Source: Isoetes taiwanensis (lineage: Eukaryota; Streptophyta; Lycopodiopsida; Isoetales; Isoetaceae). Taken from it: a DNA stretch of 64,000 nucleotides. Numbering within the stretch: position 1 is the first letter of the stretch; each line of letters opens with the position of its first letter. Shown one piece after another: positions 27,590 through 59,091 of the stretch. Under the pieces are notes generated by a model. The model had not been told where the DNA came from, ran no database searches, and saw nothing but the letters and a program-made list of their open reading frames with translations. The stretch covers positions 5,342,600-5,406,599 of the forward strand of contig JAJEKV010000058.1 of the NCBI GenBank assembly GCA_021234155.1, given 5' to 3'. Made by a program: the position numbers and the translations under genes.

Positions 27590-30500
27590 ATGGATGACTT
27601 GCTAGCAAATGTAGACATAGTTTTCTTTTTTGGAAACGTGTGAGCATGAGGAAAAGGCTCTTCGGATATTTTCGGTTTTATGCTATTGCATTCAGTATGG
27701 AATAAGAAGGGCTGGAATCTTAAAGGTACAGGTGGTATTGCATGCTATGCTCGCAATGAAATTGTGCACGCAGTGTGTGTTTTGACACATAAGGCAACTG
27801 CACAATACATTTGGATTGAATTGCCAGGTAGGGGCAACAAGATATATGTAGCTGGTTGTTATTTCCCCCCAAGGGAATCACCCGTGTATAACAAAGGAGA
27901 TCTGGATAAGGATGACCCATTCTTTCACTTAGAGCAGGATATACTAGCTTTGGGTTTGGCAGGGGAAGTGCTATTGTTAGGAGACTTTAATGGCGTGACA
28001 GGGGAAACCATCAAGCAGCTTTGGTGGGCCTAGATGGAGAAGAGAATGGTTGGAAATCTTTGGATGATCGAAATGAAGACAATTGGATGGAGCGTAACAT
28101 CGAAGACAATGTGAAATGGTCGACACCACAGGCGTCATGTCTTACATATGTGTAGCGGTTTTGAGATGGTGATCTTCAATGGCACGGATAGGTACCTGTG
28201 CTCGTAAGCGCACTTGTAAAAATACTAGCGTGGTGGATTATGTTATTGCCAAACCTACTTTTGCGAGAACATGTTATTAGCTTACGCATTGGAGATGAGA
28301 ATGAAAGCTTCGGATCATGTACCTTTGCTCATTGAACTTCATGTACGGTGGCATCATAGGCAACAAGAAGATACATATAAAGGTAAATGGATGTCTCTCA
28401 AGTATGATAAAGCTCATGAATATAGCGAGATATGCGAGAAAATGGCATCTTTGCATGGCCCGGATCGATAGGGGATATGAGTGAGGCGTTGTCTAGGGTT
28501 TTGCTTGAATCGCGGATGAATGTTTTGTATCCCACCCAAGCAACGGAGGGGGATGCCATGTAATGGATGGTTTGACATGGAATGTAAAAACAGAGGCAAA
28601 AATTTAGAGCAAAGACAAAGGCGACTAAAGTACGGGGAAAGGAAAGTGTATACCAAAGCTGGTCAAAAATAAGAAGAAGGCATATTTACATCGTAAACAT
28701 AGGAGAATGGTGGAAGAACTGCTGGTTGATCCAAAGAAATTTTGGAATAGGCTTAAACCCTTGAAGCATGGGGGTAATGTGTTGCAAGCGGAGGCACCAA
28801 TGGAGCATGTACGCAATTTATACCATGTCCATGGAGTTGAGGATAAGATGGCCGAAGAGACATATGAGATGGATGATATACTTACCTTTACTCTGGAGGA
28901 TGTTCAGGTGGGACTCAAGAGACTTGCTAATGGCAAAGCGGCAGATGCTTGTGGCCTTAAGGCCGAAATGCTTAAGTGGGCTGGAGAAGCGGTTACGAAT
29001 AGGCTGGTTGACAAGTTCAATATGGCTTTGAGAGATGGGTTTCCTAGGGCCTAGCAAGTTAATAGGGTTGTGCCATTGCACAAGTCAGGGGATGCATCTG
29101 ATTTGGGTAACTACCGTACCATTATGGTTGGCAGCCTTTATGCAAAACTGTATGCCTCTATACTTGAGGGCAAGATAAGCAACTGGGCAGAGGGTCACAA
29201 TGCTAGAGCAATAGGCCAAGCGGGCTTTAGGCCTAAAAAGTCTACAACTGACCATTTGGTCACCCTTCGTGCTATGATGGATTCAAAGGTGGGAAAAAGG
29301 AAACCTTTGTATGCTGTATTTGTGGATTTCAGCAAGGCCTTTGACATGGTGAATAGGCAAAAACTGTGGCATAGGATGGTAGATTTGGGCATCCCGATGG
29401 GGCTTAGGCATGCGGTAAGTGTTCTCTATAAAAAAGTACTCGTGCAACTCTCTTTCCCTTTTGTTGGAATGTGTGATGATGTAGTAGAGAGTAATATGGG
29501 AGTTAAACAGGGGTGTCCTTTGTCGCCTACCTTGTTTGGATTGTTCATAGATCATTTGGAGGGTGGATAAGAGCACATGGAGGGGATGGTACATCCTTGA
29601 ATGGGTATGTACTTATGCTCTTGCTATATGCTGATGATATTGTGTTGCTATCTCGGAGCATACAGGGGATGCAAAGACATTTGGATGTGCTTGCGGTTTA
29701 CGTGATGCTAAAAGTATGCGGAGGTGAACTGAAAAGACTAAGGTCATTTGTTTTTTGGAGCCGAATAAAACAGATCATGTGCGGCTACTTTACAAGGGTA
29801 AGCAAGTTGAGGTCTTTGAAAGCTATAAGTATCTGGGTTTGATTTGTAGACAAAAGTCCGAATTGGAATCAAAGTCGAACATAGAGTGAGTAAAGGGCTT
29901 AAAGGCATTATATGCAATGCTGAGAGAAGGTGTGTGAATGTCGACATTTGGAACTTTGAAATGAAATGCATGCTCTTCAAAGTATTGGTACAAACGGTTA
30001 TACTGTATGGTTGTGAAGCCTGGGGGCCAGGCCTCGCTAATGATGGGTGGAAAAAGGTGGAAAAAATACAAAAGAAATTTTTTCACACGGAACTGGGCAC
30101 TAAAATACAAACGCCATATAATATGATGTTAGGAGAGTGCGGGATGATACCCCTTGAAGCTGAAGCTCTTTGCAAAACCTTACGTTATCGTGATAAGGTT
30201 TTATATGATATGCCCGTGAATAGCTTGCCAAGAATTGCTGCAGAGAGTAGTGACAAAGGTTGGTATGCGGATATTAGTAGATGGCTGGTGAAATGGGGGA
30301 TGGATATTCACGAATTGCAGATGAATCAGGAAGATATTGAGGGATGGGTTCGAAAGAGTGTTCTCACTAGGACATGGAGTACGCCAGCTGTGAAGAAAGA
30401 GTACTATCGGACTCAGATGAATCCCACATTGAAGGCGCAAAGCAATATCTTAGTGAACCCATATCTATGAAGCATAGGCAAGCAATTGCGAGGATCCGTT

Positions 30501-30989: not shown

Positions 30990-32237
30990 ATGGCAAAGAA
31001 AAGAAGTTCGGATAAACCTGGCAGCTCTAAGATGGGCTGTGCAACTGCTGCTGATGCAACAAGAAAGGATCTTTTAAGGAAACCTAATATGCCGATTCCA
31101 GAAAGGAAAAAAAAAATCAATTTGGGGCTATCAGATGGGTCAGATTCGGATGCAGACTCCTGTGATTCCGTCAACTCTGAAGCACTCGATTCAAGGAAAG
31201 AGGTAAAATCTGCAGAGATAGAATCGAAAAAAGGAAGAGAGGTTGTGGCAGAAATAGAATCGAAAAAAGGAGGAGAGGCTGACTGGGGAAAGGAGATAGA
31301 AACGAAAAAAGGAGGAGAGATTGTGGCAGAAATAGATTCGAAAAAAAGAGGAGAGCTGACTGCGAGAATAGGGGATCGCCTTCAGCTCTTAATGCCTCTT
31401 TTTCTGATGCAGATTTTCGCCTGCTGTCAGATAAAAGGGAGACTACCGGAGGTCATACTATGAATTCTGAAAGTTCAGGAGTTATCAGAGGTAGGAAGTC
31501 TGAAATAATAGGAGTTATCAGAGATAATTCACAGCTGTTAATAGGAGGAGTTACCAGAGACGATCTGCAACTGGCAGTAGGGCAAATGAGGCAAGCAATG
31601 GAACAATCGATGCTGACAATGAAAATGGCAGTGGAATTCTATGCAAGGTATGGTGAATGATCTTAAATCCTTTCTTATTGCTCATGTTCAGACTGAGATT
31701 GATAAATGTAAAAATCAACTGATGCAAGAAGTAGATCACATTAAGAGGAGCATGAAAGAAGAATTTGAGTTGTTTAAGATAGGATTTAGTGCCTCAGGGG
31801 GGCAATCTGGTGATATCTATGGTGGAGATAAGAACAGTGGAGATAAGGAAAGTGATTTGGCAGATGTAATTACAGCTTATCTTAAGGAACAAGAAAAGAA
31901 CGAAAAAGCTTTGAATATTAGAATTATGGGCCTTCGAGAAGAAACTGAAGAGAAAACCACAGAAGTCGTGACGTCTTTTTGTAGGCAAGAGCTTCAAATC
32001 ATGGATGCTGGAATTGTAGAAGCGTTCCGGATTGGAAAGTTTAATGGCAGAGACAGACATGTTATTGTAAAGTTTCGTTGCAGGGAAGATAAGATTAATG
32101 TGTTGAAGAAAAAGACTCTGTTAAAGGGGAAAAAGATCTGGATAAATGATGACCTTACCAAGAATCAATTACAAGAATATAAAGAACAGTTGCAGCTATT
32201 AAAAGAAGCTAAGCAAAATGGTAAACGAGCATTCTGA
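30990..32237 (+). pseudogene. LINE B ORF1 (nucleic-acid-binding), nearly complete
   Basis: The N-terminal part (30990-31463) begins MAKKRSS and contains four or five degenerate copies of an 11-17-residue charged repeat (E-I-E-S-K-K-G-G-E). A middle region changes frame at about 31400-31650. The C-terminal part (31641-32237) has a heptad-like coiled-coil segment (D-H-I-K-R-S-M-K-E-E-F-E-L-F-K), then I-R-I-M-G-L-R-E-E-T-E-E-K, A-F-R-I-G-K and K-I-W-I-N-D-D-L-T-K-N-Q-L, the layout of L1 ORF1 proteins (coiled coil, RRM, C-terminal domain). It ends at TGA 32235-32237. The two frame changes make it a pseudogene, though only mildly decayed. Confidence 0.7.
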
Positions 32238-32310
32238 CGTCGTGGAAAGGTGGTAGTTGAGGAAGGAATCGCATAGGAATTTGGCACCACCAGGATACTA
32301 TGTGCTGGAG

Positions 32311-33210
32311 TATAAATAGCTTAAATGCAACAAAAGTAGAAATGATAGAGCATGTAGATTTGGTTTTTTTCCTGGAGACATGTGAGAATGAAGAACGTAG
32401 AGCTGTAGACATAACAGAATTCGATTTGGTATACTCTGTATGGAACTATAAACATTGGAGGTGAAAGGTCATGGTGGCATTGCATGTTATGTGAGACAAA
32501 AAATGAAACATATGGTGAAGTGGGTACAGGGAATTGGGTCTAAGCAACACATTTGGGTTGAAATACCTGGGCAAGCAGGAAGGATTTTTACACCGGGCTG
32601 CTATTTTCCACCACGTGAATCCCCAATTTATAACGGGGGGGTGCTGGACAGAGATGATCCATTTTTTAATTTAGAGCAAGACGTGCTTAAATTGCTGCCT
32701 CGTGGTGAAACACTCCTTATAGGAGATTTTAACGGTCGTATTGGGAATAGACAAGCAGCAATTGCTAATGGTGATGGTGAGCCAATATGGCTGGAAATGA
32801 TTGATGCTGATGAGCTAAGGCAATGCAGGTGGAGTAGAGTTTCTGGGATAAAATAAGATGGCCTACGCCTCAAGTTAATCATCTTTTGAATATGTGCACA
32901 GGTTTGGACCTGGTAATTTATAATGGTATAAATAGGTTTCCAAATTCAGGAAAACTCACATGCAGAGGTGCAAGTGTGGTGGATTTGATGATAGCACGGC
33001 CACAATTTGTGGAACAGGTTGTAAGCTTTCAGATTGATGATGAAAGACCTGAGTCTGATCATGCGCCAGTCTTTATTTCTTTACGAGTAGGCCGATATGA
33101 TATTCGGAAGGAAGCTATGATCGATTGCCTTAGAATTGTCATGCATTTCACAAGGTCATGCGATTTCACAAGTGATATGTGTTGGTCAACTATTAACAAG
33201 GGATGCTGAC
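32311..33210 (+). pseudogene. LINE B ORF2, endonuclease domain only
   Basis: The frame begins W-S-I-N-S-L-N-A-T-K, the usual start of L1 endonucleases. It passes F-F-L-E-T-C (the position of the conserved Q-E-T), then shifts frame near 32455. It then shows G-G-I-A-C-Y, Y-F-P-P-R-E-S-P-I-Y-N, L-L-I-G-D-F-N-G-R-I-G-N and, after another shift, L-D-L-V-I-Y-N-G...V-V-D-L-M-I-A and S-D-H-A-P-V at the end of the fold. Nothing of the reverse transcriptase follows. Confidence 0.75.
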
Positions 33211-35176: not shown

Positions 35177-37682
35177 CTACGTTTGCTTGGAAATAAGGCG
35201 GAGATGCTCACTCACGGAATGCGCGATGCACAGAGCTATGGCTTCGACGCTCACCATCGGATTTACACCCAGTGCTGTAGGAAACAAGCTTGCATCTGCC
35301 ACAAATAATCCGCTTACTTCCCAGCATTCACCTTTCGGATCAACAGCAGAATTCTTTGGATCAACCCCCATTTTGCAAGATCCCATTTGATGCGCACTTC
35401 CGGTGGAAAGCGCAGGTTCTCCCATTTTTTTAGACCACATTTTGGCCAAAAATTGCTTCAAATCTTCTTCAGTAGCATTCCGACACTTAAATTCGTCAAT
35501 TCCTGGATGCTGGGTGCCCACTTCTTCAGCTCCGGCGGCAATCAAAATTCTCAAAGCTCGTTCGATCCCCTGTTTCAAGCATTTTTCGTCGGATTTAGCA
35601 AGCTGGTAACTGATATTGGGCGAAATGCCCTTTCCTTGGCTAACAGTTCCACTTCCCCTGTCTCTGGCTATGGCCATTATGTGGGCTGTTCTTGAATACC
35701 TGCTCATAAATAATTTAGATTGGATTCCTGATTTCCAAGGACTTAATGCTGCAAATGTGCCTGGAGCCAACGCCGGAACTTCCAAAATAGCTCCATAGCC
35801 ACTTTCTCCTTCTATTTTAGTCATGGCGGTCATGATTCCCCCGTCATAAATTTTTCCTTCCGGCCCCTGGCCTTCTGGAAAAAAGCCCCATGCAAATTGG
35901 GTCGGGTGGATATGGAGATTCCGGCCAATATTAGGGTTCTTGAGGCCGCTTCTCTGCAGCAGAACCGGAGTTTGGAGAGACCCACAAGCCACTACGGTGC
36001 ATTTAGCATTGATTATGATTTTCAATTGCGGGTTTCCTTCTACTGATGCAATCACACCTTGGGCTTTAAAGAATTTACCAGATTTGCTCCCAAGCTTAGG
36101 ATTCTTGAAGATCGATTTGCTCCCAAGATTAGGGTTCTTGAGGATTTTTTCTGCTCTGCAGCTTGCCAGAATAATCGCTCCGGCAGATGCAGCATCTACA
36201 AGCCATGTTTCTGCGGTGGATTGTTTCGATCCTGTTTTGCATCCGAATCCGCAGTGCCCACAATTATGCAATCTGCCACTATTTGTAGGTATATCGTCAA
36301 CCTTAATTCCTAATTTTTCACACCCAATTCTTAAAACCCTGTTCTGAAAGCTTTCTTCATCGCATCCGGCCTGGACGCCAAGTCTGCGACAGATTTTCGC
36401 CATAGCCGATCGGTATTCTTCGCTCAGAAACAGATTCAGTCCGTATTTTTTGCCCCATTCATCTAAAACATGATCTGGGGTGCAAATTGAAGCAGACCAA
36501 TTTACAGCAGATCCGCCTCCGACAGTAGATCCGGCAAGGAAACAAACGGAGCCATCGTAGGTGCTTAAGAGGCCGCCTCCTTCATACATATTGGCCATGG
36601 AAGGGCCTTCAAGAAGGGAGAGGTCTTGGCGGGAAAAATATTTGCCCTTTTCTAACACAATCACTTTGAATCCTCTGTTTGCAAGCTCCCCTGCTGCCAC
36701 TCCTCCGCCGGATCCAGATCCGACCACAATTACGTCGCAATTTATCTCAATTTCTCCTGAATTTGCCCATTTAAATTCAACCCCTTTTGATTTCAAAAAT
36801 GCAACCAGACCTTCCTTGCCGGATTGAACATCAAATACTGCATCTTCAAGCGGCCTTTTCATCTTAATTCCATCTCCCAATCTGTCGTTCTGCTCCGGAT
36901 TTTCGTACCCAATTGCTTCCCATACTCGATTCCGTCCTTCTGCATTCATCTGGAATTGGATATGTCCAATAAATCAGATGAAACACAGCAAAGTTTCAAT
37001 CAATTCTTATTATTCCAAGGAAGAAAAACGAACCGATGCATAGAAAGACCACAGGCAATAGCTCTTGAATAGCTTGAACATGGATTGAAGCTTGTGTATT
37101 GATCTGGACCATTGCTGCAGTAATTTTTCTCTTCGATTCAAAGGAAGATCTGCAAAATTTTGAATAAATGGAAATGATCCAGTTACAGCGGCAGAACCAC
37201 AGGAGAGGAAGGTCCCAATTCTGGTAGACAGAAGCCATAAAAGAAGAGTCGCAAGCTGTCGCAAATTCGGGTCTAGCCATTTGAAAATCAAACCGGCTAC
37301 CTGTAGCAGAAACCCAGATCAATTCTTTTGTTTAATTGATAAAAACCTAAAGAATTATGGTCTGAAACACGGAAACAAGAACAGGAAGAGAAAAATGAGA
37401 AAAATTTGCTTAGCCGATTAAAACTTAAAGAATTTACGATCCGAGACACAGAAACAACAATAGGAAGAGAATTTGGACCTGGGCATGTGTGCCGGATTGA
37501 GAAGCAGAAAGCTGATAGAAAAATGATTCATCGGGGTCTTTGTGATTGAGATCTTCAAGAGGAATTGAAGGGATTAGAGCATCACATATTGCAGCGGCAG
37601 TTCTTAGCTTCTGTCGATTTAGGGCATGCGGAAGAGGATTGGACATGCCCCTCAGCAGAGGGTGAAATTTTTGTTGATCCAT
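35177..37682 (-). CDS. FAO: Long-chain fatty alcohol oxidase (GMC/FAO family), three exons
   Basis: The enzyme oxidises long-chain fatty alcohols to aldehydes using FAD and oxygen; plant FAOs are membrane-associated. The exons on the minus strand are 37682-37479, 37300-37034 and 36949-35177. All junctions are phase 0 with GT-AG borders (CAG/GTCCAA, CTACAG/GTAGCC, TCG/GTTCGT, TTCCAG/ATGAAT). The product is 747 residues, the usual family size. Family marks include H-P-L-L-R-G and A-A-I-C-D-A-L-I-P-S near the N terminus, W-E-A-I-G-Y in exon 3, the FAD-binding G-S-G-S-G-G-G at residues 234-240, and the catalytic His677 (S-A-H-Q-M-G-S) and Asn720 (G-V-N-P-M). An in-frame ATG at 37715 would add 11 residues that duplicate the following ones. 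ATG 37682 was chosen because plant FAOs usually start a few residues before HPLLRG. No break is seen. Confidence 0.93.
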
Positions 37683-38140
37683 ATTCGCCAATTTGCATAT
37701 TGTTTGTTGATCCATATTCGCCAGATTGTTGGAGATTGGTTGTCCTTGTCTCGTTAAAAAGAACAAAAATATCGTTGGTGTTTCACATGGAAATTAAAGA
37801 TGGTCAATTGGTGGTAGATAGGATCATAATTATGTAAACTTATTACAACAATACATTATACAGCTCAACAATTCACTGTAAAGTTCTCACACACTGCACA
37901 ATAATATATGTCTAGAATACACACATCAATAAATAAATGCATACACACATGATGCATCATAAATGACAAAAAAAAAAGAAAAGAGATGACAAAAAAAAAA
38001 GGTGACAAACATGATGTTATAGCCATTTGCCATCCCAATTACCTTGAAAATGCACATCAAGGCATAAAAGTAAAATTGAAACTCTGCACTACCTGTTCAA
38101 ACCATATATCTCAAATTTATTATGATCTGACTATTTGTAT
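37330..38140. repeat. Duplicated segment, parental copy (FAO exon 1 and upstream DNA)
   Basis: This stretch contains part of FAO intron 1, exon 1 and the upstream region. It matches 51848-52486 and then continues into 59092-59182, on the other side of Element III. At 38050-38053 lies the uninterrupted counterpart of the Element III insertion site. Confidence 0.8.
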
Positions 38141-45058: not shown

Positions 45059-45258
45059 CAGTGACTAGGATCTCCAAAGACGCGGGAACTCCGTTGGCGG
45101 GGAGGATGGTTGGAGTTTCCTTTAGTGGTTGGCGGGAGAAATCAGAATTCGGAATTGCAATTAGAGAATTGCAATACCAATTCATACAATTCGAACAAAT
45201 TTTGCATTGTTTCAATTGAATTTTCAATTTGGAATTGTAATTCGAGTCGTGAATTTCA

Positions 45259-48200
45259 ATGGAAAGCTCCCCTGAAAGCATCGATTCAACTAGAAGAAGG
45301 ATTTTCTTGCAAATTCAAGCTGAAAATAGAAGAAAATCCCGAGAAAGGAAGAGACAGAGAGAGAAGGAAAACAATCCTCCTTCCAATACCAAAGATTGTG
45401 GTGTTTTGAGTGAAAGAAGATTACAGGAATTGTCGAAGAATTTGGAAGATTATTTCAATGAAATTACAAATACTTTTGCCTCGAATGTGGACAAAGGGAA
45501 GTTAGCATCGAGATTCTTCAAGAAGATTAAACATCTTCCACTCGATGTTGATGTAGCAGATCCAAAAGAAAATGCCCTTATAAGGGATTTAATTTTGAAT
45601 GTGAAAGAGACTTTTCAAGCTCAAAAATATGATAGAAATACTGATGTTCTTCAAGCAAAAAGGAGTACACTGCAAATGGTCGTGATCTTCAACAAAGGGA
45701 GTGAATCAATCAGCAATAGCAAGGCTTCTATCTATTCCAAGAAGAACTGTGGCAAGAGCATTTCAGAGACGTGTGTATGCAGAATTTGAAGCAGGTCCCT
45801 GGTCAATGTTTCAGAGGAGAAAAAGGTCTAATGCACTTTCAGATGAAGCAATAGGTAAGATAAAGAATTTTTGGGATGAGAATACTAGGATCTCACCATA
45901 TAAAAAACATGTGAGAAAACATGTTAGTGAAACAGGTGAAAAGATTGACCATCCTATTCATTTGCTGGAGGTGACACAAGTAAGCACATTCTGCCTCTTT
46001 TTTTTCTGTATTTTGCATGATATTGTTGCTGAATCTGTGTTATGATCAGTTGCAATTTTATCTTCAATCCAGGAAAGAGTATTCTGAGATCAATATATGC
46101 CAGCAAACCTTTGAGAAGCTTAAACCAAGCTATATTAGGAGATTGCAAGAAAGGAAGGAAGGAAGGAAGGAAGGTACTTTTATCGTCCACGGAGACCAAT
46201 CGGTCTATGGGACCCAATACAAAAACGCAGCAAGCGGATTACTGCCCGGATTAAAAAACTCCCGCCCCGAAGGGTTTTCGAGGGAAAAACCGTGGCAGCA
46301 ATCAGCCTGCTGACAAACTGTCCTAACAAATTTTGGTATTTTTTTTATATAGAGAGACTTGCTGCTGCCAGTACCACATGCACCTTGATTTTGTCATGCA
46401 GGCAATTAATAACATGAGGTCTGATCCTTATAGTGTGCACAAAGATTGCAAATGCGCATGCAGGGTATGTGGTCCAGGTCCAACATGCAATGCTAAGGAC
46501 AATATTTTCAAATCTACAAGTGAGTATTGGAGAAATGTGGTATGCCCCAAAGTAGAAGCAGATGAATGGCACAAACATGCATGTTTGATGCAGACCTGCA
46601 AGAAATGTGGTCTCAAGAGGTAAGTTATTAACATAGCTCATATATATTGTTTAACTTTTCATTTCTATGATATCTAGATAACATATGTCATATATATTGT
46701 TTAACTTTTCATTTCTATGATATCTAGCTTCAATATTCTCTTTACAAGACTTTCTCTAATCCACTTTATACAGATTCCAAAGTGTCCAAGGGAAACAAGT
46801 AAATCATTAGAACATCCGGTGGATTGGAAAGTTTTGAAAAAGTTAGTGTTGAGTTTGTGTTAGAAGGATCACATCATTTATACTAATTTGTTGATTCTAC
46901 TACTTGTAAAGAAGAAGTTTGTTTCTAAGAGAAACCCTAAGAAGAAACCAACTAAAGTTACAAGATTGGCCTACAAGACTGGTACCACTTTTGAATTTCG
47001 TGGGAACATGCAAGAAAAACAATGGCGCATTTGTGCCACACAACTACAAGGCTCATTGGCAAGCAAAACAATTCAGACAATGTTTGGCAAGTTTTGAGAA
47101 GACACAATAGTTTCAGTAATTGACTTTGCGTAAAACTATGGTTTCAAAGTTCAGCCAGAAGTTTAATCATGTCATTGGCACACCCACTGTGTATCCATTT
47201 TAGTTCATATCACTTACGTGTTTGAAAGGAAACAAGAGGTGGATGGCAATGACATCAAGAAGAAAAGAAAAGATATGAAGCAAAAAAAGATGATAACAGA
47301 GAAATTATAAAAGAGTGTTACTTCTATATTTTAGATGAGAAGTCTCATGACACTGAATTTGTACAGCATTGCCTCTTAAAACATGCCACTTGGTTGGAGT
47401 TAAATGGTATTCAATATTCCAAGCATTACGTATGGTCAGATGGTTGTTCATCTCAATTTAAGTCCGCAAGACCATTATATTTCTTGGGTAGATGGTACGT
47501 AGATCTTGGGAAGGAGATTATTTGAAATTTCTTTGCCATTTCGCATGGAAAAGGTGAGCATGATGGCCAAGGAGCAAAGATGGTAAAAGATTTCTCACAA
47601 AGGAACAATCAAGTATAATGGGAGAAAACTCAGGTGTCCGCAGATGTCGCTCGATTTTTAAATGAATTCTTTACCAACGGCTCATCCGATTCGATATACA
47701 CTGAAGTGGCATCAAGACTTGTAGCACTTGAAGCACTTGAAGCACTTAGACCTGTACTCTATAATAATTATTGTGCATGATTTTTATGTATGTTTGGTGA
47801 TACTTTGCTAGTTTTATACATGTTGAAGGCCATTTATGTACAAATATAACATTTTGAACTTTTTTTTTTTGTTATTGGAATGTTTACTTACCTATACAAC
47901 ACTTACAAGATTACATACAAGGTTAAGCACTTACAAAGCACTTGATTAATTGTTGCCTGCAGGTACTTTTGGGAAATTGACCCTCATAGTATAGATAGAT
48001 CAGAAAGGTATGATGCTCAGACCCTCAAAGGGACAACTAAAATTCATTGCATCATGCCTTTTGATAGAGAAAATCCTTTGAAGCTTGCGCATAGACCTTT
48101 GTCATGTTTTTGCATGTCTTGCCGAAGGGAAATGGGACTCCTCGTAGCACTAAATCTCGTGATAGGAGGTTGGGAGACAAATGAGTTGGTCCCAAAAGAG

Positions 48201-48640
48201 CGTAATCGCAGGAAATTTCGACAATGAGGTTGTGTTCAAGACGAGGAGACCGATAGTGAAGATGATGGTGACCATGATCCGATCGGCTCTAATGTAGAAG
48301 TAGGGGACAATTTTGCGCTGAATGCGAGGAAAGAAGGCAATGCTGAGGTGTAGACTTTTATGTCCTGAAATGTATTGAGACAAAGAACACATTACTAGAT
48401 GATTATGAAGATGGCTGGGGCAATGTTTTTGGAATTGGTGAGGTCATACTTTCTGGCTACTATTACAAACAATTGGAAGGAGAATTAAGTTTTCAACTTC
48501 TTTTAGACAAACCACTGGCCACAGTGTACAGCCACCTCGTTAGGATTTGCAAATTTGACATGACTTTGGTGGAAGACAACCTGTATAGTATGGATGAGCA
48601 GACATGCCAACAAATAATGAGCAGCCTGCCTTCAAGTTGA
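45259..48640 (+). pseudogene. Element II transposase (broken, Sola-like by inference)
   Basis: The N-terminal exon (from ATG 45259) reads M-E-S-S-P-E-S-I-D-S and then an R/K/E-rich helical region. Near 45690 the frame shifts into a clear helix-turn-helix stretch, N-Q-S-A-I-A-R-L-L-S-I-P-R-R-T-V-A-R-A-F. An intron with GTAAGC...GATCAG borders spans about 45981-46050. Next come K-L-K-P-S-Y-I-R-R-L-Q-E-R and the zinc-binding D-C-K-C-A-C-R-V-C-G-P-G-P-T-C...H-A-C...C-K-K-C-G (46430-46620). An I-P-K-C-P-R-E exon (about 46775) is next. The catalytic part (46890-47700) is degraded, but W-S-D-G-C-S-S-Q-F-K remains near 47430. The C-terminal Y-F-W-E-I-D-P-x-x-I-D-R-S-E-R (47965) is readable. It is interrupted by a 205-bp insertion at 46152. 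Confidence 0.65.
46152..46356. mobile_element. ~205 bp insertion inside the Element II transposase
   Basis: Alignment with Element III around L-Q-E-R-(E/K) shows about 205 extra bases here: GAAGGAAGGAAGG, then a unique segment with GGATTAAAAAACTCCCGCCC and GGGTTTTCGAGGGAAAAACC, ending TTTTTTTATATAG. A related segment (GGATTAAAAACCCGCCC...GGGTTTTCGAGAAAAACCC) lies at 24817-24858. This suggests a small dispersed non-autonomous element with a short internal inverted repeat. Confidence 0.5.
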
Positions 48641-49362: not shown

Positions 49363-50116
49363 CTAACTATTTACAAATTGTTTCAGGTGTTGCAAGGCAG
49401 AGTTGTTGATGAACTTGCTATCTGCCTGTTCAGTCAGCCACTTCACAAATGTAGAGTAATAGAGATCAAAAGAAACCTGCTGAGGAACTGTTAATATTGC
49501 TGCATCCAACCTCTCAAGAATTTCCACGGCCTCCATATCAAATAACTCCACAAATTGTGCTCTTCAATAATGTCTTCCAGTTATCATCCATTGCAAGTTG
49601 ATACAACAATGGAAATATGGAATCCACTAGCAAACTTGAACTTGACTTAAATTCTTCAATCCTCATGCTTGCTGCAATAATAGTTGTATAAGGTGGAGAC
49701 AAGAATGTCTTATAAACTGAGTCATCAACCAAAATACTATTGAGGAAACTGGCAGTACACTTTTTCCAAAGGTTTCATGAACACTGGTTTGTCAACATGT
49801 CCAGGTAACGTGAAAGGCATTTTGTCACAAACCTCTTGTCCCCAAATAAAAACAAACCTGTGTATAAGTAATGGACACAACTTCTGTAACACCTCCTTTG
49901 TATTGAAACCAGTCATAGATGACCATATAGCCAAGTCATAGTAAACACTTACCTTGTTTAAAAATTCTGTAACACCAGGCCTGAATAAAACTATCTTGTT
50001 TTTTGTATACTCTATAATGTGTGGGCCAGGTATTTCAAGTTTTTCAGACTTTGAATATGTTTTAACCAAAACACCATTGAGGTCCATAATCAATAGCTTT
50101 CTACTTTCGTGCAGAC
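49363..50116 (-). pseudogene. Element II FCP1-like HAD phosphatase-type cargo
   Basis: The exon starts at 50116 after a TAATGTAG acceptor, so an upstream exon exists. It reads R-K-L-L-I-M-D-L-N-G-V-L-V-K-T near 50084 (nucleophile loop with Asn in place of the second Asp), L-F-R-P-G-V-T-E-F-L, L-A-I-W-S-S-M-T (motif II), F-V-F-I-W-G-Q-E and K-P-V-F-M-K-P-L, then I-L-V-D-D-S-V-Y-K-T-F-L-S-P-P near 49730 (motif III/IV). The frame shifts near 49545 and continues as E-L-F-D-M-E-A-V-E-I-L-E-R-L to TAG 49363-49365. The segments are the core of an FCP1/NIF-type HAD domain, and the layout matches the Element III copy. Damage is limited to one or two frameshifts. It lies on the strand opposite to the transposase. 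Confidence 0.75.
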
Positions 50117-50288
50117 CTACATTAGAACAAAACAAATTCAAACAACCATTGCAAAGCAATTTAAATTTTTTTTATTAATAACACTCAAATGGCTACAATG
50201 AACACTCAAATACCTTCTAATGGCTACAATACTGCCTTTCATTGATATGGAATTATCTCCAATGGTCCCTGCATGGAATCAAGGCCAG

Positions 50289-51838
50289 CTAATTTTCATG
50301 TAACAGACTCTTGATTGAGACAGAATCATTTTTGTCATTCAGAGCATCAAGTATAGCTTGAAATAGAATACCTTCTTTTGGAGTTGGACCCTGATCTTCT
50401 ACTTCAACAGTAGCAGTGGCAGCAGATTGACCTGTCGTGATGATGCTTTCCCAAGTAGCAGCATTATTAAGTGCTACAAGTGCTTCATCTGTTGTTTGCT
50501 GCAACTCTAAACTTGTATTCTCATCAGCCTCTAATGCATCTTTCAGATTCTTCTTGCTTCTGAATGGATAAGTCCTCTTAGGTGCTTCTCCTTTCCTGCT
50601 TGCTTTATCTTTGCTTTTTCGTTTCTTTGGAACCGTGACTTTTGATTTGGGTGAAAATTTCCTTTTTCTTGAATGTTCCTTCACCACTTCTATCTCTCGT
50701 GTCACTCTCTTCATGTGACTCTCAATTTTCTTTTCTCCTCAACAACCTTCCCAAGGTTTTTCAGAGCTTGACTTCACCCTCATCATCTGTTAGTATAACA
50801 TTATTTGCTCCAATCTTATAAGGAGATCTTGAAGTTGAGGGTAACAGAGTAAGATTTCCAAGAGTTGATGGAAGGTGATCCGGTATTTTCAAGCACTGTC
50901 TCGTCCACAGGCACTGTCATACCAAGCTCTAAAATAAAGCGTAATCGATAGATGAAGTGCAAACAATGCATTTACCTTTAGCCAACAAAAAGTCAGTGGC
51001 ACATTAAGTGATACTCATGATCACATTTTAGTTTTATCGATAACCTGTAATTGCTTTGGAGAATGCTAATCCACATGCAAAGACAAGCGCCCCTCAAATA
51101 GCAGTGTAAGTCTCTACTAACTGCATTGACTCTAATTTCATACCTTTCAGTTCTTCCAAGTTTTTGAGGTTTGATCTCAGTATTGAGAGGTTAGCATCCT
51201 TCACGTGAAGTTCACCTTGCAATTCATCCCTTCTTGATGCTGTGTTTGCATTGACCTTCCTGTAACTTGCCTTTTTTTTGCTGCATAGGTCTCAAGCATA
51301 ATACTTGTTTCAAGCTCAGCAATGTCTTTCTCTAACTCTGGAGTTACCTGCAAAGATTTTTTGAGTTCTAATTCTTTTTTCATTTGCTCAATATTATTGT
51401 TTGCTTCTGCCACATTGCCACTTAAAGCCTGGTTTGAGAGATCTTCTGCTGACAATGTGACAAGGATGTCATTCAACTCCAATGCACAAGCTTCTCTCTC
51501 ACTAGAAATTCTGGTGATCTCATTCTCGATCAGTTCTACATTCTGTAAAATTTTTGTGTTCAAAATAAAAGATTCCACTGCCAACTTCTTTTTCCCTTCA
51601 GCTTCTACCGTCTTCTTCTCTGTATTTTTTGGTTCCAATGATTCAGGCTTCCTACACCTCCTGTATTTCATAATTTGAGCTCCAGCAGCAGCCCAATTTA
51701 CCTTGTGCTTTTCAGGATTTTTTTGTGCAGATATGCAATTTTCCCATGCAAAAGCATAGGCTATCTGTTTTCTGACCTCATTATTGCATAATCCCTCACT
51801 CTGATAAAGCTTTTTTATCGACCAGATCGAATGCACCA
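50289..51838 (-). pseudogene. Element II coiled-coil / RING-like / lysine-rich cargo gene
   Basis: The N-terminal part (51838-51201) reads I-K-K-L-Y-Q-S-E-G-L-C-N-N-E-V-R-K-Q-I-A-Y-A-F-A-W-E-N-C. It is followed by W-A-A-A-G-A-Q-I-M-K-Y-R-R-C and a long leucine/glutamate heptad region (coiled coil). The middle is frameshifted, but C-D-H-E-Y-H-L-M-C and G-K-C-I-V-C are still readable at about 51030-50965, the remains of a RING-like zinc site. The C-terminal part (50714-50289) is lysine-rich (K-R-K-F-S-P-K-S-K...P-K-K-R-K-S-K-D-K), a nuclear-type signal. The same order occurs in Element III. It may be spliced to the HAD exon to give one protein (inference). Confidence 0.65.
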
Positions 51839-51847
51839 TCTTAAAGC

Positions 51848-52486
51848 CAACAATGTCAAACAGAAACAAGAATACGAAGAGAAAAAAAAATCTGGGTCGA
51901 CTAAAGTCGAAGGATTTTACGATCTGAGGTGGCAAGAAACAAAAATAGAAAGAGAATTTAGGCCTGGATGTGTGTGCCAGATAGAAAGTTGATAGAAGAA
52001 TGCTTTATTGGGGGCCTTAGAATCGAGAGCTTCAAGAGGGATTGAAGGGATTAGGGCATCGCATATTGCAGCGGTAGTTCTTAGCTTCTGCAAATTTAGG
52101 GCAGGTGGAAGAGGATTGGACATGCCCCTTAGCAAAAGGTGAATATTTTATTGATCAATATTCACCAAATTGCAAATTGTTTGTTGATCCATATATTCAC
52201 CACATTGCTGAAGATGCAAATTGTTTGCCTATCCATGTCTGGTTAAACAAAAAAACGTTTGATATTTCACATCGACATTAAAGATGGTAGATTGGTGGTA
52301 GATAGGATTATAATCATGTAAAGTTACAACAAGACAATTCAACATGTTAGTGCATAAAGTTCCCACACACTGTCAAATGTATATCTAGAAGTAGCCACGT
52401 CGATAAATACAAAGTATGGGGCATCATAAGTAACACAAAAAGAAAGTGACAAAAATGCACTATAGCCTTATGCTATTTCAATGATG
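51848..52486 (-). pseudogene. Duplicated FAO exon 1 with flanks (dead)
   Basis: It is a copy of 37330-38050. The exon encodes L-L-R-G-M-S-N-P-L-P-P-A-L-N...A-A-I-C-D-A-L-I-P-S-I-P-L-E-A, clearly FAO. The original start ATG is ATT here, a CAA codon two codons later is TAA, and the exon 1 donor GT has become GC. No exon 2 or 3 is present on either side. Element II abuts it on the left and Element III interrupts it on the right. Confidence 0.88.
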
Positions 52487-52501
52487 GGGTGTACCCCAAA
52501 A
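52487..52501 (+). repeat. Element III left terminal repeat
   Basis: GGGTGTACCCCAAAA, followed by GCAC and subterminal AAGTGCTTTAGGTGCTT. Compared with the right end, it lacks about 15 bp between GGGTG and TACCCCAAAA. Confidence 0.8.
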
Positions 52502-52810
52502 GCACTGTCCGGACACTTGCTTTAAGTGCTTTAGGTGCTTATTCCTCGATCAAAATTTAGAGTAACGAATTATGAGGTTGTTATTCCAGAAATAGCAATC
52601 CTCTTCCGAGGAGAAAGGGATCGATGACATGGATTGATTCTTTGGGCGCGAGATTGATTTCTTAGTTGATTCTACCGGATGGCGGGATTTCTTGGATGGC
52701 GGGAATTTGTATCAGTTCTTGCTATCATTCTTCAATTCCGGAATGAACTAGTTCATTTCAATTGCAATTCTGACAAATTAGAATTGCAATTCCTTGATCA
52801 TATCAATTTC

Positions 52811-55800
52811 ATGGCAAGTTCTCCTGAAAGCATTGATTCTGCTAAACGAAGAATTTACTTGGAGCTAGAATCCAGGAGAAAACGAGAATCCAGAAAGAGG
52901 ATTAGAGAATTGGAGAAGGAGAACATTGCACCTTTAGTAATGAAGAAAAAGAACGTTCTCTCGAGTCAAAGAAGACAACGGGAACTTTCAAAAGAGTTAG
53001 AGGATTCTTTTTTCACATTGTAAGGAATTGTCTTTGATGATGATTCAAAAGGAAGAGTGGCACAGTTTTTTAAAAAGGATCAAACATTTACCACATGTTA
53101 CTATAGCAGATCCCAAGGAATTTCATGTGATGAAAGATATGATTTCCAATGTGAGAGAAACCATGCAGCACAAAAATTTCAAAGAAGTACTGATCAATGT
53201 ACTCCAGCAAGGAAGACCGCCCTCCAAATGGCAGCTTCCACGTTAAAGGGACTAACCAGAGAGCAATTTCAAGGCTTCTTTCAATTCCCAAGAAAACTGT
53301 AGCCCTGCATTTAGAAGACTAATATGTGCGAGTTTGATGTCGGGTCTATGGTCAATGCATGCAAGGAAGAAGAGATTTGATGCACTTTCCCCCCTTAAGA
53401 GATAAGTGTTGTGAGAAGGTTTTGGCATGAGAATACACGAGTTTCACCTTATAAAAACATGTTAGAAAGCATGTAACTCGAGAGTGGTGAGAAAATTGAT
53501 CATCCAATACATTTGCTAGAAGTGGCATGGTGTATTCTTTGAACCATTTATTTGTTATTCTCATGCTTTTTAGTTTCTATATTTCTTACATGGTTCTGAA
53601 ATCTAAATTTTTTTTTTTTTTGTTCAGGTTGCAACTATACCTTGCTTTTGAAAAGGAACATCCGATATGAAGATATCCCAAACAGACTTTTGAAAGATTG
53701 AAACCAAGCTATATTAGGAGGCTTCAAGAAAGAGAAACATGTTGTCGCCAATAATACCATGCATCTTGAGTTTGCCATGCAAGCCATAAATAACATGAGG
53801 ATCGATCCTTATGGTGTACACAAAGATTGCAAGTGTAAGTGCGAGAATTTGTGGTTCGGGTCCAACATGTATTGCTAAAGAACAAACAATCAAATCAACT
53901 AGTGATTATTGGAGACAAATTGTGTGCGCTAAGGATGAGAATGATGAATGGCACAAGCATGCATGTCTAAATGGGACATGTACAAAGTGTGGTTTTAAAA
54001 GGCAAGTGTGGTTTCCTTGCAATTTCAGTTTTGATTGCCTTGATTTTAACATATTTGATTGCTTTAATGTAGGCGCCAACATGCCCTAGAGAGAAGGTTC
54101 AGAATAATAAGTAGGATGTTAATTGGAAAGTGTTTGAACAGTAAAAGTAGTTTAGATTTTTACTTGAGTTTTATGTGTGTTAGTGTAGAGGTAAATTAAA
54201 GCTTTATCCTCTTCTGCAGCAAAGAAGAAGTACGAACAAGAAAACTAGGGCTGGCAAGAAACCTTCAAAGGTTACAAGATTGGCATACAAATCAGGTTCT
54301 CCTTTTTGAATTCCATCAGCATGCAACTAAAACTCTGAAGACATTTGTTCCACATAATTACAGAGCTCATTGGCAAGCAAAACAATTCAGGCAATGTTTG
54401 ACAGCATTTGCAGATGATACTATTGTCTCTGTGATAGATTTTGCAGAGAATTATGGATTTAAAATTCAACAAGAAGCTCAATCCTGCCATTGGCATACTG
54501 ATCAGGTCTCCATTCTTGTACACATCACTTATAGAAGAATGAGAAAATCGAGAGGCGAAGCAAAGACGAAGAAGGAAGAAGATGACAAAGAGATTAAAAA
54601 GAAAAATGCTGCAAAAGAGAAAAGAAAAAACTCATTGAAAGGAATTGTGAAGGAGACTCACTTCTATATCAGTGATGACAAAACTCATGATACTGAGTTT
54701 GTCCAGCATTGTCTCCAAAATCATGCAGATTGGCTAAAATCTATGGGAATTAACTATAACAAACATGTTTTCTGGAGTGATGGCTGTTCTTCACAGTTTA
54801 AATCTTCAAGACCATTTTACTTCCTTGGTAGGTTTCACAAACATCTTCAAAAGGACATTCTCTGGAATTTTTTTGCTAGCTCACATGATGGTGCTGGAGC
54901 TATCATCAAGAGGATTCTAACAAAGGAACAGATGAAATATAATGGAAAGAAATTGCAGTGTGCAAAGGAGGTAGTTTCATTTCTTAGGTGGTACTTCAAC
55001 AACAATCCCACTGATAATGACATAACAAGGTATACTTTACTGGTTTTCCTCTGCATACTTAAAGCACTTAAAGCACTTAAGTACTTAGAAATTAAGGGCA
55101 TGAATCTATAAATTGTTTGTGTATGTGGTTGTTAATGGGTTACTCCATTATGTAAAATATGATATTTCCCAGTCCTAAATCAAGATTGTCTTCTTTTTTT
55201 ATTTTTTGATATCGATATTCTTCAACTGTTTCAGCACTGAAATCACTTACATCACTAAGCACATGTGCAGGTACTTCTGGGAAATTGATCCCTCAAAAAT
55301 AGATAGATCTGAGAGATTTGACTGTCATACTTTGAAAGGAACTACACAACTCCATTGCATAAGACCATGTGACAAGGACAACACTCTAAAGGTAGCTTAT
55401 AGACCTCTCTCATGCTACGTGAGAATTGTGTTCAATTCAATGGGACTCTGCACTACCAAGTCACATTGGTGGTTGGGAAACTACTGAACTAAAACTGAAG
55501 GAGATTAAAGCTTAACTAATGATGCTAATAAAGCATCAGATGAAGACTTGCAGATAGAAGATGAACATGAAGAAGAGGATGATGAGGAAGACTATGACAT
55601 AGCTAGTTCTATGGTAGAGGTTGGCGATAATTTTGCTGTCAATGCAGAGGAAGGTAATGAAGAGGGGGTTGATTTTTATGTATTGAAGTGCACAGAAGCA
55701 AAGAACACTTTGCTTGAGGATTATGTGGATGGATGGAGAAATGTATTTGGAGTTGAATCTGTTATTGTCTCAGGATATTACTATAAACAGGTGGGTGGTC

Positions 55801-55963
55801 TCAAATTTGAGCTCTTTGGATGACCACCTGTGGCTAGTGTGTATAGCCACCTTGTAAGATTAGCTAACTTTGAAATGATTGCAGATGAAGAGGATGATAT
55901 GTTGTATACTATGGCTGAAGACACTTGCCAACAGATTATATATAGCCTCCCAAACTCAGCTTA
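52811..55963 (+). pseudogene. Element III transposase (catalytic half well preserved)
   Basis: ATG 52811 gives M-A-S-S-P-E-S-I-D-S-A-K-R-R-I and an R/E/K-rich coiled region. The helix-turn-helix part is badly broken (53020-53550). A C-rich zinc region (53815-53995; C-x-x-C-G at the end) follows with one frameshift, then P-T-C-P-R-E (54075). From about 54290 the catalytic core is open: H-W-Q-A-K-Q-F-R-Q-C, V-I-D-F-A-E-N-Y-G-F (likely first Asp), C-H-W-H-T-D-Q-V, I-S-D-D-K-T-H-D, W-S-D-G-C-S-S-Q-F-K-S (likely second Asp) and F-F-A-S-S-H-D-G-A-G-A. It runs to a GTATAC donor at about 55030. Its downstream exon begins at about 55272 (Y-F-W-E-I-D-P-S-K-I-D). The C terminus is acidic (55548 onward), with one TGA at 55821, ending L-P-N-S-A at TAA 55961-55963. 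Only part would be functional. Confidence 0.75.
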
Positions 55964-56272
55964 AATTCATTATTCATTTGGTATTCAGTCAAAATACTGT
56001 TCATATGGTATTGACTCAATTACTATTCATAGTTTGACTATTAAAGCAAAAGCACTCACACAAAAAACATCAATGCAATTGTAACCTGAAAAGCATGTAT
56101 TTATGTTCCTGTATTACATCAAAATTGTGGCATATCTGCCTGTATAACATGTACAAAATTGTGGCATGTCTGCCCGAGTTATATATAAGTCTTCACTATT
56201 TCAATATATAACCCAGAACTTTTGCATGAATCTGGTCTGTATCAACTTAACCTGAATCAACTTAACATTTGT

Positions 56273-57017
56273 TAATCCTGAATCAACTTCTGCATTCTAT
56301 CTCTGTGTCCTGAAGTATGAAAGGTCTCCCTTAACCATTGTAGCTGACCTTTGCAATATTGTTTTACTATTTCAGTGGTTTCCTTTCCCAATTCAAACTC
56401 TGACATTGTTTCTAGAATTTCGAGAGCATCCTCGTGTCTAATCGATCCGCCTACAATGCTCCTTTAGAATGTTAGAGAAATCATCAACCATTGCCACATC
56501 CTTAAGCAATGGGGGAATTGGTCCAATACATAATCATCCGCATCCAAATTAAAGCACGGAATCAAAAGAGATGTGAAAGGTGGAGAGGCAAATGTTTTAT
56601 GAATACTATCATCCAACAATATGCAATTGCCCTCATATTGTGGGTATTCACTAAAAACTGCAGATAAAGGTTTTAAGTACAATGGTTTTTCAGATTGGAT
56701 GGGCCACTTGAAAGGCATCTCTAAGCAATGGGTCTGATCCCAAATAAATACAAAGTCATGTCTAATAACTGGTGCTATGACATCCACAACTTCATTTACA
56801 TTAACCTTGTTCATGGATGACCAAATTGCTATGTCAAAGTGTACCATTGCTGCCTGCAGAAATTCCCGTGCATAAGGCCTTAAAACAACCAATTTCTTGC
56901 TTGTTTTTGAAATCCACAATCTGTTGTCCACACGTACAGGATTGTTCCTACTGTATGTCCTTACTAGAACACCATTCACATCTAAAATAAGAAGTTTCCT
57001 CTTCAAAGAGGACTTCG
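56273..57017 (-). pseudogene. Element III FCP1-like HAD phosphatase-type cargo
   Basis: The exon starts at 57017 behind a GTACAG acceptor in the same codon phase as the Element II copy, so the intron position is shared. It reads R-K-L-L-I-L-D-V-N-G-V-L-V-R-T near 56982 (second Asp of the HAD loop is Asn), L-R-P-Y-A-R-E-F-L, I-A-I-W-S-S-M-N, F-V-F-I-W-D-Q-T-H-C, P-L-Y-L-K-P-L, then C-I-L-L-D-D-S-I-H-K-T-F near 56610. A C-run frameshift near 56508 and another near 56430 precede the final segment H-E-D-A-L-E-I-L-E...L-R-E-T-F-H-T-S-G to TAA 56273. This is the complete FCP1-type core with a helical C-terminal extension. A host relative family (DLNGLL-type FCP1-like plant proteins) is known. Whether it retained phosphatase activity is doubtful given the Asn. 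Confidence 0.8.
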
Positions 57018-57309
57018 CTGTACATCTATCATTCAACAAATATAAAGTAAACACCAACTCAAACACAAACACAAACAGAAATTTAAAATACTAAAATAAT
57101 AATAACCTGTCAACATTTTGGTCAACATTTTGATCAACCATTTGTTCAACATTTTGGTCTTGAAATACAATTGTACCTGAACATTCAAACATTTATAGTT
57201 AAATTAAATCAAAGATTTTATAGACACATTTGAATTGCCTCTTAAGACCTCCATAATTGCATTCATTTTGGTACCTGTGTCTTCCTTTTCTGGTCCTTCC
57301 TTTTCTGTT

Positions 57310-58871
57310 TCTTCCTATTCTAGTTCTTCATTTTCTGGAGATTCAACCTCAACTTCCTGTACAGATTCCATATCCTTTGCCAATGCCCTCCTTCTAAAAT
57401 TGTACTTCCTGCCTTCTTGACCTGTGTTCTTTGCCTTTTTAATGTTTTTGCCCTTCTTTGTTGCAACCTCTCCATCTTTCCTTTTCCTTTTGTTGGCTGC
57501 TTTCTTCTCTACTCGAAGGGGTACTTTGTACATCCTTACTACATCCTGCATCATCCTGTTCAACAACAGTTTCATCCTGCTCACTTGCATATCCTGCAGT
57601 GGATGCTTTTCTAGCTGCTCTTTGCCTTAACTGCTTTTTAGGACTACACAATGCATCTTTCAGCACTTTTTCAATTCCAGAAGGTGGCACATAGTCTTCA
57701 GTAGCACAAGAGGACCTAAGTGAATCATGCTGATTTGTAGGTATATCTACTGTAGGCATATCTACTATTTTATTTCCTTCTACCGCTGTCACATGCATGC
57801 CAAGCTCAACAAATAAATCTGGATGAATTACACTCTCACATACCTTGCATTTACCTTCCTTCAACAAGGCTGCACAAGCCACATGGTACTCATGATCACA
57901 ACTCAAAATCAAAGACAATTTGTACCTATCATGAAAAAGTAGGCCACAAGCACAGCAAGCACCAAAGTTGCAGATTCCTAGTAGTCTTCTGCTGATAGTG
58001 TTGATGCAGAATGGATTACAACTTATATTCTTCAGTTCTGTAAGATTAGAAAGATTAGATCTGAGTTCTGAAATTCTGGCCTCTTTCTCTTTGATCTCCA
58101 CTTCCAAGGTATTCTTCCTCGAGCTGCTTCCTTCTGTATCTGGAGACTTGAAAAGGTTTTTAACTCGGTTACAGTAATATGTCTTCATTTGTAGTGTCAT
58201 CTCCAATTCCTTCCTCAGATCAGAATCCTCCTGCAACTCAGATATTGAGGTCTTCAAATCCTCAACTTTCTTCATGCTCTCTTCAAGTTCCACACTGAAT
58301 TTTTCATTAGACTTAGCCTCTGCAGCTAAACTAACCTCAATTGCATGCACCTCTTCTAACATGCTTGCCTTTTCATTCTCAAGCTTATTTACAGCTTCCT
58401 TAATCAATTCAAAGTTCTCTTTTAAAGCAGAGTTGTCTAATTTTGAACTTTCTAAGCAAGTAACTTTGCTAGAAGTGGCAACATGGACATCCTTTCCCCT
58501 AGACCTGCAATTTCTATACTTCATAACTTGAGCTCCAAAAGAGGCCCAATTGATCTTGTGCTTTGCAGGGTTTGAAATGGCAGTATCACAATTTTCCCAT
58601 GCAAAAGCATAAGCCACCTGCTTTCTCACTTCATTGTTTGGCATAGTTTCCTTTTGATATAATTTTTTCAACAATCTGTCCAATTTTTTTGGAACCGAGG
58701 CTGGATCATAGAAACTTTCATCTTATTGCTTGGGCCTTCTTGCCAAACCGAGGCCTATTGTGCATCTGTTACATTCTCTTCCAACCGTTTTACTTTCAAA
58801 GCAGGCTGCAATCCTTCACCAGAAAGTCCATGAATGTCTATGAAATCTTGCTCGGTCACCGCTTCGGCCAT
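57310..58871 (-). pseudogene. Element III coiled-coil / RING-like / lysine-rich cargo gene
   Basis: A Kozak-like start at 58871 gives M-A-E-A-V-T-E-Q-D-F-I-D-I-H-G for 38 codons to a TAG at 58755-58757. The main frame (58683-57439, 414 codons) is offset and may follow an intron or an indel. It has N-N-E-V-R-K-Q-V-A-Y-A-F-A-W-E-N-C near its residue 16, a long coiled coil (about 83-220), and a RING-H2-like site at about 238-282 (C-A-C-G...C-D-H-E-Y-H-V-A-C...K-C-K-V-C). The lysine-rich tail continues in a second frame (57590-57315: K-K-A-A-N-K-R-K-R-K-D-G...). By structure it could be a nuclear E3-ligase-like or DNA-tethered accessory protein; nothing in the sequence proves activity. It is transcribed toward the HAD exon, possibly as one transcript. 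Confidence 0.7.
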
Positions 58872-59061
58872 TGTAAATTGAACGGATCAAAGGATTGTGT
58901 GACAGAATTGGTGATCTAGGAAGAGGATTCGGAAACAGAGGATTCAAAATTGGGGCTGAATAAAGAAAGGGCGCGCGGGAAACGAGGCAAATGATGTCCT
59001 CTGAAAAAAAAACTGTCACTACTCGAATTTAGGTGCTTTAGGTGCTTGGTGCTTTCGCGCA

Positions 59062-59091
59062 TTTTGGGGTACCACTATCAAATTTACACCC
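59062..59091 (-). repeat. Element III right terminal repeat
   Basis: The reverse complement starts GGGTGTAAATTTGATAGTGG and continues TACCCCAAAA, then subterminal AAGCACC repeats. GATG (59092-59095) directly follows. Confidence 0.8.

Follow-up and report, generated by a model that had tools for sequence, protein, structure and literature searches.

Why would DNA transposons of a plant carry a gene segment with a phosphatase fold? The question is raised by a 64,000-nucleotide stretch of the Isoetes taiwanensis genome (assembly GCA_021234155.1, contig JAJEKV010000058.1, positions 5,342,600 to 5,406,599; at its full length, the window), in which three elements, I, II, and III, each hold an FCP1-like haloacid dehalogenase (HAD) segment. 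A preliminary description of the window had read each of these segments on the strand opposite to its transposase, as we saw in all three elements, and had taken them for cargo. Following them through the host assembly (1,658,258,908 bases), we observed that in two classes of transposon a second gene regularly includes the HAD, which is under selection. On balance, and with the mechanism proposed below included, we favor the explanation that two classes of large DNA transposon with dissimilar transposases encode an auxiliary protein ending in an FCP1/SCP-type HAD of the DxN form.

A second transposon gene that probably carries the HAD

Element III is a complete 6.6-kb DNA transposon (52487 to 59091) with GATG on both sides as a 4-bp target duplication. 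Its transposase, marked by the blocks SVIDFAENYG and WSDGCSSQFK, lies on the plus strand (52811 to 55961). The minus strand holds the HAD exon (about 56275 to 57017; DVNGVLV) and, ahead of it, a coiled-coil/RING (CC-RING) gene (57275 to 58871) made up of an N-terminal motif, a coiled coil, a RING-H2-like finger, and a basic stretch. Element II has a decayed plus-strand transposase (45253 to 48637), whose aligned pieces are 37 to 84% identical to element III in amino acids, a minus-strand HAD exon (49363 to 50116; DLNGVLV), and a minus-strand gene with coiled coil, RING remnant, and basic stretch (50292 to 51860; 40% amino acid identity to element III over 175 residues). A search for the ends of element II found none, and a dispersed repeat (51860 to 52444) overlies the 5′ end of its minus-strand gene. 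This repeat forms a direct pair, ∼75% identical and of dispersed type, with 37369 to 37977.

Element I is a 12.5-kb DNA transposon (683 to 13151) whose terminal inverted repeats (TIRs; 683 to 707 and 13127 to 13151) match at 24 of 25 nucleotides (nt); it is seated in an (AGA)n microsatellite, which makes its target duplication unreadable. Transposase pieces on the minus strand (882 to 3371) include a DUF7869 domain (PF25273; 49.3 bits in 1661 to 1969, cutoff 26), and the plus strand holds a second gene, discussed below, and the HAD segment (11083 to 11886; DVNGVLA; sequence partly read by eye). All three window copies are damaged: the HADs of II and III (the latter near 56510 and 56450) and the CC-RING gene of III are frame-broken, HAD I is broken, and transposase II contains stops. 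Numerous near-palindromes (TTCTCGACTCGCGAGTCGAGAA), possibly binding sites, are scattered through element I between 5200 and 12300.

The transposases of element I and elements II/III had been described as different, and our comparison agrees. The II/III transposase matched nothing above a Pfam cutoff, and hhalign of DUF7869 against it, from shallow alignments, gave a probability of 0.1%, with no similarity detected.

Twenty 10-kb stretches of the host genome, hand-picked across scores of 71.7 to 84.8 bits for the Pfam NIF family (PF03031), comprised 4 host-like genes with a DxD loop (DLDHTLL) and 16 DxN loci. Families A and B make up ten of these DxN loci and lie with transposase pieces of the II/III type; nine of the ten also have the CC-RING region. 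Both families have inverted repeats beginning GGGT or GGGC, with an exact 30-nt TIR in two family A loci (L012 and L017), and the termini of element III are similar to those of family A. Both ends were readable at seven of ten loci inspected by eye, and in all seven the 4-bp flanks were identical (CAAA, TATT, TACT, ATCA, ATAG, AGCA, and TATT; the ATAG, at L021, lies within a microsatellite). Counting element III of the window, all 8 elements whose two ends could be read have a 4-bp target duplication. These elements carry TIRs together with a target duplication, as cut-and-paste DNA transposons do.

In elements II and III, the minus strand reads, in order, N-terminal motif (NNEVRKQ.AYAFAWENC), coiled coil, RING-like finger (the remnant in II), basic stretch, and HAD exon. 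From these signals, the HAD is probably the 3′ end of a larger minus-strand gene with the coiled coil and RING-like finger. By eye, a phase-1 splice donor stands at the matching position in element II (donor-like GT, 50370 to 50371), element III (57273 to 57274), as well as in family A. Also by eye, a phase-1 acceptor was placed ahead of the HAD (acceptor-like AG at 50117 to 50118 in element II; position 57018 in element III; in family A, one of several candidates fits). Directly past the donor, II, III, and A share a short conserved tail, AL.GKSN(V/I)S(I/L)..., which terminates in a stop; in both family A copies inspected, the tail is out of frame with the preceding exon. Two products are possible, one short and consisting of the CC-RING, the other long and including the HAD as well. 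RING-H2 fingers follow the consensus C-x2-C-x(9-39)-C-x(1-3)-H-x(2-3)-H-x2-C-x(4-48)-C-x2-C, and copies of families A, B, and III have a spacing within it (C-x2-C-x14-C-x-H-x2-H-x2-C-x8 or 9-C-x2-C). The pattern had no match in element II of the window, and zf-RING_2 was absent from the Pfam matches of L017 at an E value of 0.1.

DUF7869 elements have the HAD at the end of another gene. The same holds for group C (six loci; DMNGVLL), where the gene ahead of the HAD has a homolog in the second gene on the plus strand of element I (E value, 4e-6). The homologous portion in element I spans 9393 to 9968, and tblastn with the protein of group C locus L028 matched 9519 to 9845 (E value, 3.6e-6). In the fetched stretches, DUF7869-type pieces are divergent to the HAD at L014, like element I, follow the HAD on its own strand at L019, which does not fit the element I layout, and are absent from the other four of the six loci. 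At L019, L020, L022, and L028, we noted ParB-like (VIAGQHSMMAMQML) and methyltransferase-like (VEVNCGGNIAREALLMGR) segments by eye; neither drew support from Pfam, PHROGs, or NCBIfam, and we claim neither. A further HAD family, D (DVNRIF), was seen on the minus strand of L012 (506 to 1189), with ∼25 closer genome matches and many dispersed ones at 26 to 34%.

Linkage of the HAD to two dissimilar transposases

The genome lists hold the best 101 to 150 scored places of 3,261 to 9,902 candidates, so the co-occurrence counts below are lower bounds. First-look candidates numbered 3261 for PF03031 (best 150 scored), 8853 for the II/III-type transposase with element III as the query (best 130 scored), and 5932 for the element I transposase (best 150 scored). 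HAD candidates in the host genome run to thousands, loose and mostly unscored. The counts used 130 of 133 transposase matches and 150 of 151 HAD III matches.

Of the listed transposase copies, 22 are at least 85% identical to that of element III. A listed HAD stands within 7 kb of 13 of these, every one converging with the transposase and 1.33 to 1.68 kb from it; chance would supply 0.0013 per copy. By falling band of transposase identity, a listed HAD was found at 13 of 22, 14 of 27, 21 of 47, and 3 of 34 copies, a total of 51 of 130, without exception in converging orientation. A further three of the 22 close copies have a converging HAD 14 to 29 kb off, a distance that fits nested insertions. 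For the nine close copies without a near HAD, we inspected 2-kb stretches: two (L045 and L047) contain HAD pieces, one (L042) has the CC-RING alone, and six are blank, three of which belong to copies with the HAD farther off. With wider gaps and remnants counted, 18 of the 22 close copies keep a HAD or its remnant. The earlier suggestion of a link would have fallen if most copies lacked the HAD; for close copies of the element III type, most keep it.

The same association was seen from the other components. A listed transposase lies near 52 of the 150 listed HAD places, and the 10 best HAD III matches, window included, have transposase pieces in 10 of 10 cases and the CC-RING in 9 of 10, within 1.5 kb. 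When the CC-RING was searched alone (104 matches, reduced to 89 loci by dropping second pieces), a listed HAD accompanied 51 loci, in all 51 downstream on the same strand and in 49 within 370 to 1388 bp. At CC-RING loci at least 80% identical to the query, the proportion was 20 of 27, and full triples number 23 among the matches listed.

Type I elements behave likewise with a different geometry. The HAD I query gave 150 scored relatives, the majority without inner stops, and among 150 transposase and 150 HAD places we counted 27 pairs within 16 kb, the window being one, where 0.43 were expected. All 27 are divergent, 19 of them at 8.0 to 9.5 kb; extending the distance to 30 kb gave 32 pairs, 31 divergent. 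A listed HAD was present at 8 of the 20 best transposase I places. Pairs of a HAD of one type with a transposase of the other occurred at one place each way, against 0.38 expected each way, and both are on contig C1020. There, at G000:C1020:139042-156052, a III-like element is apparently nested within a type I element.

Host-like NIF genes with a DxDx loop do occur in the same genome, and the HADs could in principle be ordinary host genes beside transposon insertions. Where both ends were read, the inverted repeats enclose the HAD, with differing flanking DNA and 4-bp duplications outside them, and its orientation is single in 51 of 51 listed pairs of the II/III type and 27 of 27 of type I. 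These observations leave next to no chance for separate nearby host genes and refute that explanation for the sampled loci. The HADs do belong to transposons, of at least two types; the word "cargo" is too weak for what is, in most close copies, a standing part of the second gene.

Active site, selection, and possible role of the HAD

The blocks read in the preliminary description, D-(L/V)-N-G-V-L, W-S-(S/C)-M, and D-D-S, are present in all three window HADs: LLIMDLNGVLV, AIWSSM, and LVDDS in II; LLILDVNGVLV, AIWSSM, and LLDDS in III; and, partly by eye, LVIFDVNGVLA, AIWSCM, and LIIDDS in I. HADs II and III share 45% identity over 121 residues, and HAD I is 38% identical to each of them over 63 to 64 residues. 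With its curated cutoff of 21.8 bits, PF03031 recognized HAD II (44.2 bits) and HAD III (58.0 bits), as proposed for FCP1-like proteins. The broken window HAD I scored 11.8 bits and does not pass, though all four intact relatives tested from the same genome do (40.4 to 42.3 bits). Scores at other loci were 76.1 (L017), 75.9 (L018), 77.7 (L014), 74.7 (L022), and 70.2 bits (L028). No NCBIfam subfamily cutoff was reached: the best scores were 32.3 against 135 for FCP1 (TIGR02250), 46.0 against 139 for dullard-like (TIGR02251), and 41.5 against 192 for UBLCP1 (TIGR02245), and the type I HAD reached 27.6 against a cutoff of 192. The closest named subfamilies, all below cutoff, are the dullard-like, FCP1-like, and UBLCP1-like phosphatases, and the sole solved structure found as a relative by sequence was UBLCP1 (3shq). 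A structure model of HAD III, built from three sequences, had a mean pLDDT of 42 and was not used. Because a HAD fold is present in two classes of element with inverted repeats, an enzyme that processes nucleic acid ends during transposition, like the HAD part of polynucleotide kinase-phosphatase, has to be weighed. The best family matches are to NIF and to dullard-like, FCP1-like, and UBLCP1-like protein phosphatases, and we regard an end-processing role as quite improbable.

NIF/FCP1-SCP enzymes have the active loop DxDx(T/V), the second Asp serving as acid/base. In the element HADs this Asp is replaced by Asn in 26 of 26 DxN-type loci, comprising 16 of the 20 stretches sampled by PF03031 score and 10 sampled by HAD III score; the loci were chosen by score, and the pattern that picked their rows required Asn. 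Among type I copies selected without requiring Asn, it was present in 8 of 8 (in two of these, the DD block is out of frame [L055] or the copy stops short of it [L049]). Across the 29 rows, counting those that reach each column, the nucleophile Asp is kept in 29 of 29, the motif III Lys in 28 of 28, and the motif IV DD pair in 27 of 27. The kept catalytic residues, in elements that have their own transposase, would suit a slow yet functional phosphatase whose targets are proteins of the element itself, the transposase or the CC-RING, and which tunes transposition instead of opposing the host. The constant Asn (26 of 26 and 8 of 8) and the association of one HAD type with two dissimilar transposases speak against such an enzyme, which we consider unlikely.

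We favor instead a HAD directed at a host protein. It would grip a phosphorylated nuclear protein by means of the kept nucleophile Asp, Lys, and DD pair, and the Asn in place of the acid/base Asp would make release slow or prevent it. In type II/III elements, the RING part could bring ubiquitin to the gripped protein. As a result, the element would be better expressed or more mobile, most likely through weakened host silencing.

Selection on the HAD was evident in the codons. Differences between HADs II and III fall at codon positions 1, 2, and 3 at rates of 0.43, 0.36, and 0.65 (one-sided Fisher test, P = 2e-6), and the coiled coils of II and III show a similar codon-position pattern. Median pairwise ratios of nonsynonymous to synonymous change (dN/dS) in the HAD are low in the older groups, family B (0.18; 15 pairs) and group C (0.16; 9 of the 15 pairs unsaturated). 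Family A has a median of 0.67 from 6 pairs, III-like copies one of 0.64 (39 of up to 45 pairs below 1; maximum, 1.93), and type I copies one of 0.66 (27 of 28 pairs below 1). A dN/dS below 1 in the HAD segment, which the preliminary description had named as a check, thus holds for most pairs. For the CC-RING, the corresponding medians are 0.36 for family B (6 pairs), 0.76 for family A (3 pairs), and 0.72 for III-like copies, where 17 of up to 21 pairs fall below 1. Older splits are under strong constraint and young copies are in partial decay, as transposons would show.

Pack-MULEs and ULP1-bearing (Kaonashi) MULEs are plant DNA transposons with a host-type gene inside, and Pack-MULEs often carry captured genes without use. 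The elements described here likewise have a host-type gene aboard, with a different transposase class and different cargo. A chance-acquired host HAD gene, carried without use, would be consistent with the decay of single copies (young-copy dN/dS near 0.65) and with the absence of the HAD from 4 of 22 close copies. That II, III, A, and B have this arrangement in common at HAD identities of only 27 to 51% and that the HAD is under purifying selection and retained by most close copies make such passive capture highly improbable. Retention by selection suggests that the transposons use the HAD, perhaps on host proteins.

In trees, host DxD proteins are separated from the element HADs (SH-aLRT, 100). 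The HADs of type I, group C, and family D cluster (83), as do those of II, III, and A (88), and B stands by itself (97). The trees give no order among these three groups, and both carry long-branch warnings; lacking a host DxN outgroup, they fit single capture, repeated capture, and exchange alike. A host protein of the DLNGLL type had been suggested as the source, and the degenerate pattern DLNGLL(A/V)D(I/V) matched 0 places in the whole host genome. Within type II/III, families III and A are nearest to each other both by HAD and by transposase, which fits joint inheritance. By the N-terminal block of the coiled-coil gene, II and III are nearest (0.61), unlike in the HAD and transposase. In this comparison, the C-terminal and zinc blocks of the transposase were unusable and the catalytic-block rows B2 and B3 are short pieces.

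Several observations weigh against the use of a HAD on host proteins as we propose it. Every biochemical step of the mechanism is inferred. Four of the 22 close transposase copies are without a HAD (L042 has the CC-RING only; L041, L043, and L046 are blank in the fetched 2 kb), as are 7 of the 27 close CC-RING places in terms of listed HADs. Below 65% transposase identity, a listed HAD stands at just 3 of 34 places, and a listed type I transposase accompanies only 1 of the 20 best HAD I places; both counts come from best-scored lists and may mean little. The dN/dS of young copies, near 0.65, is only mildly below 1, and the sample is tilted to intact copies because copies were found by HAD score. 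The splice between the CC-RING and the HAD is predicted from sequence signals read by eye. The RING scores below the Pfam zf-RING_2 cutoff of 27.3 (20.6 bits at L018 and 13.3 in element III), and the ubiquitin step cannot be general because DUF7869 elements have the HAD without a recognized RING.

A broader proposal is that the DxN HAD is a general counter-defense or licensing module of plant DNA transposons, joined to different partners, and that with the RING it makes a transposon-encoded phosphoprotein-directed ubiquitin ligase. This we put forward only tentatively. A selected phosphatase-fold module in two classes, once with a RING, points to a hitherto undescribed step, involving a phosphoprotein, by which transposons are held in check in this plant lineage.

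Known systems and other features of the window

To our knowledge, few accessory enzymes are common to different transposon superfamilies. The element HADs belong to the same domain family as the FCP1/SCP/UBLCP1 phosphatases (PF03031) and share with them the nucleophile Asp, Lys, and DD pair; they differ in having DxN where those enzymes have DxD and in falling below the NCBIfam subfamily cutoffs. A literature search over titles and abstract openings, in partial listings, returned no HAD or FCP1-like gene in a transposon, and DUF7869 was not mentioned in the literature searched. The closest precedent is that of fungal DNA transposons of several superfamilies that carry TET/JBP enzymes, a gene reported to have been transmitted between transposon lineages (Kojima 2025, PMC12730594); there, likewise, one type of accessory enzyme is found across different superfamilies. 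In that system the enzyme is a dioxygenase in fungi, whereas here it is an FCP1/SCP-type DxN HAD in a plant, beside a RING or other domains. No dioxygenase was among the Pfam matches of the scanned element proteins, and the word "phosphatase" is absent from the main text of PMC12730594. By analogy, the element HAD case resembles the TET/JBP case, but the enzyme and the kingdom differ and additional domains are present. The published case points directly at the host silencing step that is presumably opposed. Plant Vandal MuDR elements encode a regulator of their own silencing, and other transposons carry SET methyltransferase genes, both as named in the introduction of PMC12730594, where the passage on them mentions no HAD or RING; an extra gene acting on silencing is likewise what we propose here.

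The genome-wide search with DUF7869 gave 9902 first-look candidates, and the best 150 scored were all above the cutoff, a large load of one transposon class. Fourteen control genomes contained 0 DUF7869 matches and also 0 PF03031 matches, which makes them little informative, and scans of viral and prokaryote contigs with a few short patterns each from the HAD or the transposase found no relative.

An Rfam scan of the window at gathering scores gave no match. On the plus strand, 27207 to 28366 and 32055 to 33206 contain two related sets of open frames, at most 57% identical in amino acids and ∼4.8 kb apart. An imperfect inverted repeat with arms of ∼0.9 kb each, 72% identical, occupies 23466 to 26027. 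At about 15500 to 16000, a plus-strand frame resembles plant isocitrate lyase, as an impression by eye only.

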